Assembly (NCBI RefSeq): GCF_000597865.1
Contig: NZ_CP007452.1
Location: 1,557,183 to 1,621,182, forward strand
DNA: 64,000 bases
From: Peptoclostridium acidaminophilum DSM 3953
GTDB lineage: Bacteria; Bacillota; Clostridia; Peptostreptococcales; Peptostreptococcaceae
Direction of reading: 5' to 3'
The position numbers and the translations under genes were made by a program. The notes under the pieces are model-generated. The model did no database searches, was not told the origin of the DNA, and saw only the letters and a list, made by a program, of their open reading frames with translations. Shown piece by piece: positions 37,041 to 42,609 of this stretch; position 1 is the first letter of the stretch, and each line of letters starts with the position of its first letter.

Positions 37041-37580
37041 TTATCTGTCTTCATCTGTTACTGCAAACACATAAGGGATGTTCCTGTAGTAACTGCTGTA
37101 GTCGAGGCCGTAGCCCACAACAAACTTATCCTCTATTGTAAAGCCAATATAGTCGGCCTGGTAATCCACTGCTCTCCTGCTTGGCTTGTCAAGGAGCACG
37201 CAGGACTTTACGCTTGCAGGCCTCTTACCTTTAAGGTGCTCAACTACATACTTCATTGTTATACCCGAATCAGTAATATCATCCACAACAAGCACGTCAT
37301 ACCCCTCAATATCCTCCGTTATGTCATTCAAGACGTTGACGCTTCCCTTTGATTCAAATTTATCCTCATAGCTCGAAGTAGTCATAAAGCCTATTTTTAC
37401 AGGTACACTTACACTCCTTGCAATATCCGATGCAAAAATGAAGCTCCCCTTTAGAAGTGATAATATAAAAAGCTTCTTGTTCTCATAGTCCTTTGATATT
37501 TGCAATCCTAGTTCTTCAACTCTTGCAGCTATATCTTCCTTCGAGCACAGAATTTCCCACTTCTTCTTTTCTATATCCAT
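37041..37580 (-). CDS. hpt: Hypoxanthine phosphoribosyltransferase
   Basis: A 179-residue purine-salvage enzyme that makes IMP/GMP from base and PRPP. The PRPP motif is VLVVDDITDSGITMKYV near 100, and the PPi loop LLKGSFIFA is near 45. GGAGGTAAAAA precedes the ATG. It is a single gene between two terminators and could take up purines imported by the permease at 6925-8295 (inference). Confidence 0.95.
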   Translation of the reverse strand: MDIEKKKWEILCSKEDIAARVEELGLQISKDYENKKLFILSLLKGSFIFASDIARSVSVPVKIGFMTTSSYEDKFESKGSVNVLNDITEDIEGYDVLVVDDITDSGITMKYVVEHLKGKRPASVKSCVLLDKPSRRAVDYQADYIGFTIEDKFVVGYGLDYSSYYRNIPYVFAVTDEDR

Positions 37581-37715: not shown

Positions 37716-39035
37716 TTATACCATAATTATGCTGGCCGACTTGTTTTTGTTCATCCTGTCCATTACGTCAACTATTACATCGTCAGTTACTCTCATACCT
37801 CTGTCGCTTACCTCGCCTAGATTTCTTATGCTCTCCTCTACCGTTTCGCCCACTATGCCGTTGAATTTTGGAACTATTGAGCCGTATTTTACATTTATGG
37901 CGCTCTGCATGGCAGCTGCCGCCGCACTCGAGAGCTTGTAAGCACAGCCCGCCTTTGCGCCGTCGCATATCATTCCGCTCAAGTTGGCTATCACGTTGCT
38001 TATAGCACCTTCTATGGCTTCGTAGCCCAGATCCATTAGCCATGCTATTGCAGCTGTCGATCCGACAGATGCCGCGACTCCGCAGCCGCATACAGCCGAA
38101 AGCCTTCCAGTATAGTTTTTCACATACGCTATAACGAGATGGCTTATTGCAAGCGCCTTGGCAAGCTTTTCATCGCTTTGCGGGTATTTGTCGTTGTATG
38201 CGGCAATTGGAAGTATTGCCGTTAGTCCGTGGTTTCCGCTTCCATTCGAGCTCATTACCGACATCTTCACGCCAGACATCCTTGCGTCAGAAGCTGCAGC
38301 TGTTATCATCATGGCCATATTTATAAGGTCTGCTGATATGAACCCGTCTTCTATAGCCAATTTCAGGCTGTAGCCTACACCGGCGCCGAGCCTTTGAGAG
38401 AGCCCCTTATCCGCCATTTTTCTGTTCATCTCTATGCCTTCAAGCAGGAACTCTATGTCCCTTAGCTCCAGCTCTTCAACAAGCTGTATTAGCTCTTTTA
38501 TCGTAAGCTTTACCACAGGGCTCTCGTTCTGGCTTGAAGCCGAGCCCGTTATGTTGCTCATGCAAGTATTCAAAATAACTTGATTGTCTTTTTTTACCAG
38601 CACAAAGTTGTCATGCTTTGTACTTATCACAGCCTCAGCTATACTGTTTTCACCCTTCAAAACAGCTCTTGTAAATATCCTGTCTCCCTCTTTTACAGGC
38701 GATATTTTTATGAACCCTTCATCCACCATCCTTTGGGCTTCATCTATCTGGCTTTCCTCTACACTTTCGAGAACTGCAAGACCAAGCTTGGAGTCTCCTC
38801 CCAAAAGCCCCATGGCTGCCGCTATTTCAAGTCCTATCTTGCCATTGCTTCCCGGGATCCCTACTCCCATTCCGTTTTTATATATATTGGCGCTTACTTC
38901 TATAGTGCACTCCAGGCACTCTTCTCCGAGAACCTCTCTTGCTTTTGCAACGGCAAGCGCCACAGCTACAGGCTCAGTACAGCCCAGGGCAGGCTTAACC
39001 TCTGATTTTAGAAGCTGAATAATTGTATTTTTCAT
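37716..39035 (-). CDS. cdsB: L-cysteine desulfidase (UPF0597/CdsB family)
   Basis: A 439-residue member of the serine dehydratase alpha-like/UPF0597 family. It degrades cysteine to pyruvate, sulfide and ammonia using a 4Fe-4S cluster. Conserved Cys segments are PALGCTEPVA (C19), SAVCGCGVAA and CDGAKAGCAYKL. ATG at 39035 follows AATGGAGG. A sigma-54 promoter starts about 60 bp upstream, and the sigma-54 activator gene lies directly behind. In Clostridioides difficile the same pair (CdsB with its activator CdsR) is known, which supports the call. Other members of the family act on serine-like substrates. Confidence 0.85.
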   Translation of the reverse strand: MKNTIIQLLKSEVKPALGCTEPVAVALAVAKAREVLGEECLECTIEVSANIYKNGMGVGIPGSNGKIGLEIAAAMGLLGGDSKLGLAVLESVEESQIDEAQRMVDEGFIKISPVKEGDRIFTRAVLKGENSIAEAVISTKHDNFVLVKKDNQVILNTCMSNITGSASSQNESPVVKLTIKELIQLVEELELRDIEFLLEGIEMNRKMADKGLSQRLGAGVGYSLKLAIEDGFISADLINMAMMITAAASDARMSGVKMSVMSSNGSGNHGLTAILPIAAYNDKYPQSDEKLAKALAISHLVIAYVKNYTGRLSAVCGCGVAASVGSTAAIAWLMDLGYEAIEGAISNVIANLSGMICDGAKAGCAYKLSSAAAAAMQSAINVKYGSIVPKFNGIVGETVEESIRNLGEVSDRGMRVTDDVIVDVMDRMNKNKSASIIMV

Positions 39036-39120: not shown

Positions 39121-39312
39121 GTCTCAAAAAAAGCCCACAGCATCTTAATTAATAATACAACCCAGTATTTGCAATGCATTTGCCAATTTATAGTATTTAT
39201 GATTATATTTTTTTAAAACTTCAATTATTCCATCAGACGTTAATTAGTAATCTCGCTCCACTTTTGTCTCAAAACAAAAAAAAATAATCTCATCTTGAGA
39301 CTAAGTCTCAAT
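39121..39312. repeat. Four GTCTCAA motifs between cdsB and its activator
   Basis: GTCTCAA occurs at 39121-39127, 39267-39273 and 39306-39312, and inverted as TTGAGAC at 39296-39302. The last two form a perfect 8-bp-arm palindrome (TTGAGACT-A-AGTCTCAA). They lie upstream of the sigma-54 promoter and may be activator sites. The palindrome is also the core of the activator gene terminator. Confidence 0.5.
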
Positions 39313-39324: not shown

Positions 39325-41086
39325 CATATTCCTTTATTTTTCTGTACAACGTGGCTCTTGATATGCCCAGTGCCTGAGCTGCCTTTTCCTTGTCCTGCTT
39401 GTAATCCTTAAATGCAAAAAGAGCCTTTTGTATCTCCGCTTTTTCAAGCTCGCCCAGCGACATTATGCCTTGATATTTTGACTGCTCATATCTTCTGGGC
39501 CTGGCCGTTTTGAGCTTTTCCGGAAGGTCTTCGGGAACTATGACGCCTGTTTTAGTCATGTTGATGCAATACTCTATAACATTTTGAAGCTCTCTGACAT
39601 TGCCAGGCCATTCATACGCCATCACTATGTCCATGACCGAATCAGAAAAGCCTTCAACACTTTTTCCAAGATTCTGCGAGCACTCTCTGGCAATACTCAT
39701 CAATAACTCGGGTATGTCCTCCATACGCTCCCGCAGCGGAGGAACTCTGATTGGAATGACATTGAGCCTGTAGTAAAGATCTTCCCTGAATTCACGCTTT
39801 TCGACCATTTCCTCCAGATTTCTGTTAGTCGCTGATAGTATCCTCACATCCACAGGAGTGCTGCTGCTGGAGCCTATCTTGTCTATCTTCTTTTCCTGAA
39901 GCACCCGCAGAAGCTTAGCCTGTAAATGCAGACTCATGTCTCCTATCTCGTCCAGAAAAAGCGTACCCTTGTCAGCCAGCTCGAATTTCCCCAACTTTCC
40001 GCCTTTTTTTGCACCCGTAAATGCCCCTTCCTCATATCCGAAGAGCTCGCTTTCCAAAAGCGCCTCCGGAATAGCCGCACAGTTTATAGCTATAAAAGGG
40101 TGGCTGTTTCTGCTGCTAGCACTGTGAATAGCCCTTGCAAACAATTCCTTGCCGGTTCCGCTCTCGCCCGTTATAAGCACCGAAGACGCTGAGCGCGATG
40201 CCACCTTCGCTTGTTCTATGGCATTGCTTAAAGGCTCACTGCTGCCTATTATGCTTTCAAAGCCTATCCCAGACTCGGAATATGCAATTTCATTGTAGTC
40301 GTTTATGGCCGATTTTGCATCCACAAAATCTAATACAAAGCCTTCCGCTTTGCCGTCTATTATGACTGCATTTATGTTATATATTCCCCTGAAAGAATGG
40401 CTGCCCTTGTTGTATACAAAGCCGGCGCTCCTTTTGCTGCTGACTGCTCCCTCGAGTTCTTCGGGTTTTATAAAATTCAAAATATCAAAAATGCTCTTGC
40501 CTTCGATTTTTTTCGCCTGCCTGAACAAATCCACAAATTTTTGATTCCAGCTGTCTATATGCCCTTTATTGCTAACAGACACAACCGCCTTGTCCATGTT
40601 GTTTATAAGCGTCTGCATTCTGCTTGTTTCAAGCTTGAGCATGCTCGCCTTCTCCTCGGCCCTCAGCTTGCTCGAAATCAGCTCTGACATCTTTCCGAGA
40701 AAATTGAGCAGTTGCGCTTTATTTTCTAGAAGATTGGCCCTTTGCTGCTCGTCGAATGCTATGAGGCCTATGACGCCGCAAATACTCCCTTCAAGCTTTA
40801 TGGGACAGCATACCTCTCCCCACTCTACGCACTCGTATTTCATGCTGCAGCGCCTGCACACATCGTCCAGGCGGGGATTCTCAATTATAAAGCTCCTGCC
40901 TGTATCCATAGAGCTTCCAAAAGCCGACATTCGGCTTACCTTCTCGCCTATCTTGGACACATATGCTCCTGTTCCAGCTATCCTAACAAGGTCTTCGTCC
41001 ACTATTGTCACATCTACCTTCAAAACGCACGAGATGGCTTCAGCAATGTTCTGTATGTCTGTTTCAATGCTTTTGAGTCCAATCAT
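39308..41086 (-). CDS. cdsR: Sigma-54-dependent activator of cysteine desulfidase (CdsR-like)
   Basis: 592 residues. The N-terminal sensor (about 1-135) carries a Cys-rich block C-x2-C-x5-C-x7-CC (DDVCRRCSMKYEC then GEVCCPI, about 75-97), fit for a metal, Fe-S cluster or thiol sensing. A PAS domain (about 155-260) follows. The AAA+ domain has Walker [15 protein letters not shown] and Walker B GTLFLDEIGD. The C-terminal Fis-type helix-turn-helix is KEKAAQALGISRATLYRKI. The ATG at 41086 directly abuts the stop of the 47-residue gene (TAG-ATG). The gene symbol is by context and family. Confidence 0.82.
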   Translation of the reverse strand: MIGLKSIETDIQNIAEAISCVLKVDVTIVDEDLVRIAGTGAYVSKIGEKVSRMSAFGSSMDTGRSFIIENPRLDDVCRRCSMKYECVEWGEVCCPIKLEGSICGVIGLIAFDEQQRANLLENKAQLLNFLGKMSELISSKLRAEEKASMLKLETSRMQTLINNMDKAVVSVSNKGHIDSWNQKFVDLFRQAKKIEGKSIFDILNFIKPEELEGAVSSKRSAGFVYNKGSHSFRGIYNINAVIIDGKAEGFVLDFVDAKSAINDYNEIAYSESGIGFESIIGSSEPLSNAIEQAKVASRSASSVLITGESGTGKELFARAIHSASSRNSHPFIAINCAAIPEALLESELFGYEEGAFTGAKKGGKLGKFELADKGTLFLDEIGDMSLHLQAKLLRVLQEKKIDKIGSSSSTPVDVRILSATNRNLEEMVEKREFREDLYYRLNVIPIRVPPLRERMEDIPELLMSIARECSQNLGKSVEGFSDSVMDIVMAYEWPGNVRELQNVIEYCINMTKTGVIVPEDLPEKLKTARPRRYEQSKYQGIMSLGELEKAEIQKALFAFKDYKQDKEKAAQALGISRATLYRKIKEYGIISN

Positions 41087-41230
41087 CTACATCTTGTCCT
41101 TGACCTTCATAGTCAATATGATGTTTTTGATCTCCTTGAGCTGCACGAGTATATTGTTGAGTGTGAGCTGCAATGTTCCAAGAATTATGAAAAGTATTAT
41201 TATAGCTACAAATTCAAAATGAAATTCCAT
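41087..41230 (-). CDS. 47-residue membrane microprotein coupled to cdsR
   Basis: A small frame starts at the ATG at 41230 after AGGGGTGATAAT. It begins MEFHFEFVAIIILFIILGTL, one clear membrane segment, then continues with an amphipathic helix (LTLNNILVQLKEIKNIILTM) and a basic end, KVKDKM. Its TAG touches the ATG of the sigma-54 activator with no spacer, so activator translation is probably coupled to it. The gene lies behind the methyltransferase terminator. No family is recognised; a membrane partner or anchor of the activator is a guess. Confidence 0.65.
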   Translation of the reverse strand: MEFHFEFVAIIILFIILGTLQLTLNNILVQLKEIKNIILTMKVKDKM

Positions 41231-41257
41231 ATTATCACCCCTGTTGGATTTTGATTT

Positions 41258-41285
41258 AAAAAAAGACTAGCAGGCTAGTCTTTAA
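41258..41285 (-). terminator. Terminator after the 41282-41860 methyltransferase
   Basis: The stem AAAGACTAGC/GCTAGTCTTT, with some overlap at the loop, is followed by T7 on the minus strand. Confidence 0.8.
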
Positions 41286-41860
41286 TTAAGTTTCTTACCT
41301 ACAAATATAAACTTTTTGTTTTCAACGTCATTTATTTCTCCGGAATATCCCAACCCTTTGAATAGCCTGGCCATCTCACCAGGAGCATAATATTTGCACT
41401 TGAATCCCATCAGCTTCATGAAAACAACGCATATTTTCCTGATTATTCCATTCGGGTTGACTTCCTCAATTATTATATCTCCGTGTAATTTTAATACCCT
41501 GTCCACTTCTTTTAACACTTTTTTTTCATCTTCAAAACTGTTGAAATGGTTCAAAAAAACAATCTTGTCAAAGCAGGAATCCTTAAAAGGCATGTATTCA
41601 GGCAATCCGTCAACTATGCTGCAGTTCGAGTTCTTTATTACTGCTGAATTGTTGAAGTTTTCAGCGTGCTCAAATATTGTGACATCTGCTCCCGCTTTTC
41701 TCAGGTACTTGCCGTAATACGAAACATCTCCCATTAGAAGAATTTTTTCTCCAAACGATGGTCGTAAAAAATCCATAAAATTGCTAATGTTTTCCTTTCC
41801 CTTGCAGGGGCATATGCTGTGTTGCGAAGAATCAGCTGCCGGTTTAACCAAAATAATCAC
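41282..41860 (-). CDS. Class I SAM-dependent methyltransferase
   Basis: 192 residues. Motif I is degenerate (ILLMGDVSYYGKYLRKAGADV instead of GxGxG). The segments DGLPEYMPFKDSCFDKIVF and LKEVDRVLKLHGDIIIEEV are typical of the Methyltransf_11 group. A Cys-rich start (CPCKG) is unusual. It lies alone between two terminators. The substrate is unknown and the altered motif I leaves activity open. Confidence 0.7.
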   Translation of the reverse strand: MIILVKPAADSSQHSICPCKGKENISNFMDFLRPSFGEKILLMGDVSYYGKYLRKAGADVTIFEHAENFNNSAVIKNSNCSIVDGLPEYMPFKDSCFDKIVFLNHFNSFEDEKKVLKEVDRVLKLHGDIIIEEVNPNGIIRKICVVFMKLMGFKCKYYAPGEMARLFKGLGYSGEINDVENKKFIFVGKKLN

Positions 41861-42081
41861 CTTCTATGTATACTATGGTGCTGTATGTATATTATAAACC
41901 ATGTATCCCAAATATTCAATATCACAAGCATATTTTTACATTAATGCCGCAGTTTTCCATTAACTTCTTTTTTAATCTAATTATAAACCCGCATTCCAAG
42001 CTTTATATTCCATTGGCCTTTTTTTTTATCTCGAAATGGTTTAATATTATATGAGTACAGATATTTCGGAGGTTGATTGTA

Positions 42082-42609
42082 ATGTTTGAAAATTCATCTA
42101 AAGAGTCAGCAATTCAAAAGCTTCTAATTCTATATATTTTTAAAAGCATTGATTTTGGACTTACAAATTCACAGCTCACCCAGATAATAATGGAAACCGA
42201 GCTTATGAACTATTTTCTGTTCAAGCAGTACATTGCAGAGCTCACTGAAAACGCACTTGTGACAGAGGACAGCAATTCCAATAACCAACGCTATAACATT
42301 ACCACGAAAGGCATGCAAACGCTCAACTATTTCATATCCAGAATTCCGTATGCAACACGCGAAAAAATCGATTTTTACCTTCTTCAGAGCAAGGATCGCC
42401 TTGTTAAGGATACACAGATAAAATCAAATTTCAAAAAGATAAGCGAACACGAGTATGCAGTCGAGCTTAGCGTCATCGAAAACAATGCATCACTTATAGA
42501 CCTAAGCATCAGCCTTCCCTCAAACAAGCAGGCCCGGCTTATATGTGAAAACTGGAAGAAGAATGCAAACAGCCTATATGGCGACATTCTCCAATTGCTT
42601 ATAAAATAA
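42082..42609 (+). CDS. DUF4364-family protein
   Basis: 175 residues; start ATG at 42082 with CGGAGG 9 nt before it. The N-terminal part reads as a winged helix: ESAIQKLLILYIFKSIDFGL, TNSQLTQIIMETELMNYF, QYIAELTENALV and YNITTKGMQTLNYF. The C-terminal half is beta-rich. This family is widespread in Clostridia and is probably a DNA-binding regulator, but no target is known. It is a lone plus-strand gene between minus-strand neighbours. Confidence 0.8.
   Translation: MFENSSKESAIQKLLILYIFKSIDFGLTNSQLTQIIMETELMNYFLFKQYIAELTENALVTEDSNSNNQRYNITTKGMQTLNYFISRIPYATREKIDFYLLQSKDRLVKDTQIKSNFKKISEHEYAVELSVIENNASLIDLSISLPSNKQARLICENWKKNANSLYGDILQLLIK

Follow-up and report, generated by a model that had tools for sequence, protein, structure and literature searches.

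A conserved 47-codon membrane microprotein gene that adjoins cdsR in Peptostreptococcaceae

In the genome of Peptoclostridium acidaminophilum DSM 3953, a 47-codon open reading frame runs directly into the gene of a sigma-54 activator, which raises the question of whether this frame encodes a protein at all and, if so, whether that protein serves the activator or stands on its own. We use SMP as a working name for the microprotein frame, whose strand had been left unstated in the initial annotation of the locus. The window (the whole stretch of DNA that was analysed, 64,000 nucleotides) contains the following features at and downstream of SMP:

41087..41230, minus strand: SMP gene, 47-codon predicted membrane microprotein, ATG at 41230, stop codon TAG at 41089-41087
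41238..41242, minus strand: SMP Shine-Dalgarno sequence AGGGG, identified from sequence, 7 nt 5' of the SMP ATG
41096..41101, minus strand: cdsR Shine-Dalgarno sequence AAGGAC, within the final SMP codons
39308..41086, minus strand: cdsR, sigma-54 activator, orthologue of C. difficile CdsR (Sigma54_activat, E 1e-73; HTH_8; synteny)
39171..39186, minus strand: candidate sigma-54 type -24/-12 promoter TTGGCAAATGCATTGC 5' of cdsB, assigned by position and by the C. difficile cdsB promoter form (across the entire window, a loose -24/-12 pattern matches no more often than expected by chance)
37716..39035, minus strand: cdsB, cysteine desulfidase of the SDH_alpha fold (PF03313, E 7e-57)

The activator and SDH_alpha genes are assigned as cdsR and cdsB on the basis of their synteny with C. 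difficile, in which CdsR and the cysteine catabolism module CdsR-CdsB have been described (PMC5767170). The positions bear out both the good Shine-Dalgarno sequence claimed for the microprotein and the abutment of its stop codon on the activator, the TAG being followed directly by the cdsR ATG at 41086.

Forty-seven open codons alone are no proof of a gene; it is conservation together with a low dN/dS that lifts SMP (translated product MEFHFEFVAIIILFIILGTLQLTLNNILVQLKEIKNIILTMKVKDKM, 47 residues) above chance. The reading frame is kept as a single copy in 70 of 71 Peptostreptococcaceae genomes, including C. difficile, and is found in 162 of the 247 genomes of the order sample by a profile search, for which the profile was built from Peptostreptococcaceae members alone; as some of the searched genomes are incomplete, some absences of SMP or CdsR may represent missed matches or assembly gaps. 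Its carriers include Clostridioides difficile, Romboutsia, Intestinibacter, Peptostreptococcus, Tepidibacter, Sedimentibacter, Alkaliphilus and Dethiosulfatibacter. Beyond the order, clear matches in the class sample are limited to three genomes of the f57 lineage and one of f42. A wider spread across the phylum was considered and rejected, as the phylum sample yields SMP in 2 of 299 genomes, one of which is the query's own. A high ratio of nonsynonymous to synonymous changes, named beforehand as an observation that would speak against the frame, is not what we find: pairwise Nei-Gojobori counts pooled within genus give a dN/dS of 0.035-0.31 in twelve genera, indicating purifying selection. 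These data confirm the SMP frame as a real, conserved protein-coding gene that is nearly universally retained, in single copy and under strong selection, in a group to which C. difficile belongs.

The suspicion that the gene may be unannotated is justified as far as family databases are concerned, as neither the SMP of the window nor its relatives have a significant match in Pfam or NCBIfam. Comparison with PHROGs gave weak matches to unnamed families (best E 6.5e-4), and membership of a known small-protein family was rejected, since nothing both significant and named emerged from the three collections. Searching the C. difficile literature by locus tag, we found no paper naming the SMP gene with the tags tried, and the microprotein goes unmentioned in the relevant passages of the report on CdsR (PMC5767170).

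The best 19-residue hydropathy window of SMP reaches 2.33, and the protein has the size and architecture of single-pass membrane microproteins (fewer than 50-60 residues, one hydrophobic helix). An AlphaFold2 model computed with 30 sequences, a type of monomer model that favours helices for any sequence of this kind, predicts one unbroken helix with a mean pLDDT of 92, which maps to the gene as follows:

41093..41218, minus strand: SMP codons 5-46, single continuous helix predicted by AlphaFold2 (pLDDT 92) and hydropathy

We infer that the membrane span covers approximately residues 5-24 and that the remainder forms a lysine-rich, amphipathic cytosolic part. The N-terminus would lie outside and the C-terminal half inside, because the lysines sit in the latter (positive-inside rule). 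Of the proposed membrane helix plus amphipathic helix, the span and the amphipathic part are thus retained, while the two separate helices merge into a single predicted one.

The size and the single membrane helix are also what would be expected of the small hydrophobic toxin of a type I toxin-antitoxin pair. Such a role is highly improbable for a gene that is present in essentially one copy per genome and is inherited vertically within conserved gene neighbourhoods, and an Rfam search revealed no antisense RNA gene in the vicinity of SMP.

Conservation along the helix is unevenly distributed. In the order-wide alignment, the heptad positions L17, I20, L24, I27, L31, I34 and L38 show a mean entropy of 0.66 as compared to 1.50 elsewhere, the lowest value among the seven possible registers. 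As the lowest-entropy positions form a heptad pattern, the sequence suggests that SMP self-associates via this face; a membrane helix can equally show such spacing where it packs against another protein. Self-association through the heptad-patterned face would leave a conserved polar stripe (S19, Q21, N25, K26) free, which might bind a membrane or cytosolic partner. Among the positions counted, N25 is invariant and Q21 near-invariant, having been replaced once (by H), which makes SMP a good target for mutagenesis.

The relation of SMP to cdsR was assessed from gene order, spacing and co-occurrence. The gene directly 3' of SMP is cdsR in 37 of 41 family loci, and the stop-to-start gap falls between -8 and +5 nt in 30 of the 39 directly adjacent pairs (between -23 and +5 nt in 33 of them). 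These 30 pairs lie within -8 to +10 nt, the range taken as predictive of termination-reinitiation (PMC10666635). A Shine-Dalgarno-like motif is present in the SMP tail in 30 of 39 cases when cdsR follows, compared with 8 of 42 otherwise. Since the gaps fall into the termination-reinitiation range and the cdsR Shine-Dalgarno sequence usually resides inside the last SMP codons, translational coupling of SMP and cdsR is likely. The suggestion that SMP gates translation of the activator therefore finds the appropriate anatomy, in gap and Shine-Dalgarno overlap, but it applies mostly to Peptostreptococcaceae, to which the adjacency is largely limited. Where the two genes adjoin, mutants of SMP or polar insertions in it would interfere with the translation of cdsR, and the outcome could be mistaken for a cysteine-sensing phenotype. 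A fusion of SMP and CdsR by stop-codon readthrough was rejected, as the two are in frame in just 4 of 39 adjacent pairs; readthrough is further disfavoured by the SMP stop codon, which varies even within the genus (TAG here, TAA in L031).

The short gap and the overlapping Shine-Dalgarno sequence would also fit a frame that is a mere leader controlling cdsR by translation, with a peptide of irrelevant sequence. This leader-only reading is already disfavoured and very unlikely to be correct in view of the low dN/dS, the conservation of the helix core across families and the survival of SMP without cdsR.

Outside the family, SMP and cdsR part company. There the gene following SMP is cdsR in 2 of 40 loci, as opposed to hpt in 11, pfkB in 11, a gene on the opposite strand in 11 and another gene in 5. 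Several other families lack CdsR, encode it at a different genomic site, or have pfkB between it and SMP. Of the 247 order genomes, 118 carry a match to the CdsR sensory domain and 162 carry SMP. SMP was found without CdsR in five Peptostreptococcus genomes (G038, G040, G041, G044, G045) as well as in G018, G019, G071, G073, G074, G077, G078 and others, while four genomes encode CdsR and give no SMP match (G089, G150, G163, G200). In the Peptostreptococcus genome G037, pepF runs directly into cdsR with no SMP in between. The protein core of SMP is unchanged in lineages without an adjoining CdsR. The distribution of SMP does not follow that of CdsR. The adjacency to cdsR that was to be looked for in relatives thus exists in C. 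difficile and most Peptostreptococcaceae but rarely beyond them. A dedicated CdsR partner would be recognised by co-occurrence and lasting adjacency, and neither holds throughout the genomes compared: because each gene occurs without the other and their adjacency is mostly confined to one family, we do not consider SMP a dedicated partner of CdsR. This corrects a natural misreading, in that the tight adjacency within one family resembled a partnership and the wider comparison separates the two genes. As a separate observation, many family genomes encode an additional protein of some 200 residues that stands alone, matches the CdsR sensory region (residues 1-200) at 34-45% identity and lacks the ATPase and DNA-binding parts.

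The role originally proposed for SMP, anchoring or regulating the activator, is not supported, as SMP extends well beyond the lineages in which it adjoins cdsR. Restricted to Peptostreptococcaceae, the proposal would have SMP act as a membrane anchor or inhibitor that retains CdsR at the membrane until a cysteine signal arrives, much as in the Prli42-stressosome model. It draws on the very short gap at the 37 adjoining family loci, on the finding that E. coli gene pairs with a spacing of -8 to +10 nt code for subunits of a complex 4.5 times more often than widely spaced ones (PMC10666635), and on a cytosolic lysine-rich helix that could bind a protein. Nevertheless, either gene occurs alone even inside Peptostreptococcus (G038, G040, G041, G044 and G045 versus G037), the SMP core stays the same where CdsR is not beside it, and CdsR is predicted to be a soluble DNA-binding activator that needs no anchor, which leaves the proposal unlikely. 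Comparably unlikely is that SMP has been recruited in Peptostreptococcaceae as a membrane-bound modulator of CdsR. If true, a sigma-54 activator of cysteine breakdown would be under the control of a small membrane protein; in C. difficile, this breakdown lifts the repression that cysteine exerts on toxin synthesis.

The remaining neighbours of SMP in the window are the following:

37041..37580, minus strand: hpt, hypoxanthine phosphoribosyltransferase (TIGR01203, E 8e-59)
41262..41283, minus strand: terminator-like hairpin AAAGACTAGC-CT-GCTAGTCTTT plus T run, between the methyltransferase gene and SMP
41282..41860, minus strand: SAM methyltransferase upstream of SMP (Methyltransf_11)
42073..42609, plus strand: divergent DUF4364 gene (PF14277, E 6e-53)

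Outside the family, hpt is tied with pfkB as the commonest gene directly downstream of SMP (11 of 40 loci each), and in the f57 and f42 lineages (L088, L089, L090, L106) the SMP and hpt genes overlap by 11-23 nt. Several distant lineages have DUF4364 directly next to SMP in divergent orientation, and in the f57 genomes SMP lies between the divergent DUF4364 gene and hpt. It could therefore be argued from this frequent adjacency and overlap that SMP serves Hpt, for instance as a tether that keeps the enzyme at the membrane for purine salvage. We regard this as improbable: proximity to hpt is weak evidence because the entire valS-folC-DUF4364-hpt neighbourhood is conserved, and the f8 and f10 lineages place SMP downstream of an ackA/yceD/rpmF cluster (rpmF identified by eye from its C-terminal sequence, ackA and yceD separately).

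The small SAM methyltransferase (41282-41860) has no match above an NCBIfam cut-off. The hairpin at 41262-41283 has the form AAGACTAG(G)-loop-(C)CTAGTCTTTT, and its primary sequence is kept in most methyltransferase-bearing family loci, a fixed sequence that a terminator does not need. It also occurs in one other family (L092), varies in loop length, is close to unique within each of the genomes tested and is absent from loci that lack the methyltransferase. At L053, a locus without the methyltransferase gene, the hairpin 5' of SMP has the form GATTAGG...CCTAATC; the change is compensated, as though its sequence were no longer constrained. The GACTAG hairpin was rejected as a control element of SMP, as it follows the methyltransferase and not SMP; an Rfam search of the SMP leader and hairpin returned chance-level eukaryotic microRNA and lncRNA models and no known RNA element. 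A second sequence-conserved hairpin, AAAGGCTACC-loop-GGTAGCCTTT, is found at 13 loci (range L033-L062) between DUF4364 and a polysaccharide deacetylase gene.

Taken together, we consider it reasonably probable (roughly 60%) that SMP is an older, independent and vertically inherited single-pass membrane microprotein of Peptostreptococcales/Tissierellales, which self-associates and is coupled to cdsR at the level of expression. In Peptostreptococcaceae, cdsR-cdsB lies between SMP and hpt; an old SMP gene near hpt may thus have had the cdsR-cdsB module lodge behind it later in this family. Insertion of the module, rather than its loss elsewhere, is the simplest account, its direction being read from gene order. 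After insertion, the SMP 3' end would double as the cdsR ribosome binding site, so that ribosomes finishing SMP could restart on cdsR and provide a steady supply of CdsR tied to SMP translation. Such coupling would act on expression and probably not through the SMP protein acting on the CdsR protein. For the protein itself, we favour a self-associating membrane helix that would modulate a membrane or cytosolic partner.

Among known small or helical membrane proteins, DUF948 proteins combine a membrane helix at the N-terminus with a coiled-coil-like helix behind it. SMP resembles them in this combination, but DUF948 proteins are far longer, and in the search with PF06103 a single one of 28 SMP members matched, below the gathering score and without significance (E 0.19). 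Prli42, the membrane miniprotein of the Listeria stressosome (NF033880), is likewise a single-pass membrane microprotein that was overlooked through its size and provides the closest precedent for the anchoring idea; its partner is the stressosome and not a sigma-54 activator, and the two of 28 SMP members that touch the model do so without significance (best E 0.14). The C. difficile CdsR-CdsB module has the same cdsR and cdsB downstream of SMP as the window, and the -24/-12 type promoter 5' of cdsB matches the form of its C. difficile counterpart (PMC5767170). With gene pairs undergoing termination-reinitiation (PMC10666635), SMP and cdsR share the very short gap and the location of the downstream Shine-Dalgarno sequence inside the upstream gene; they differ from them in that SMP, the upstream gene here, also exists without a downstream cdsR.
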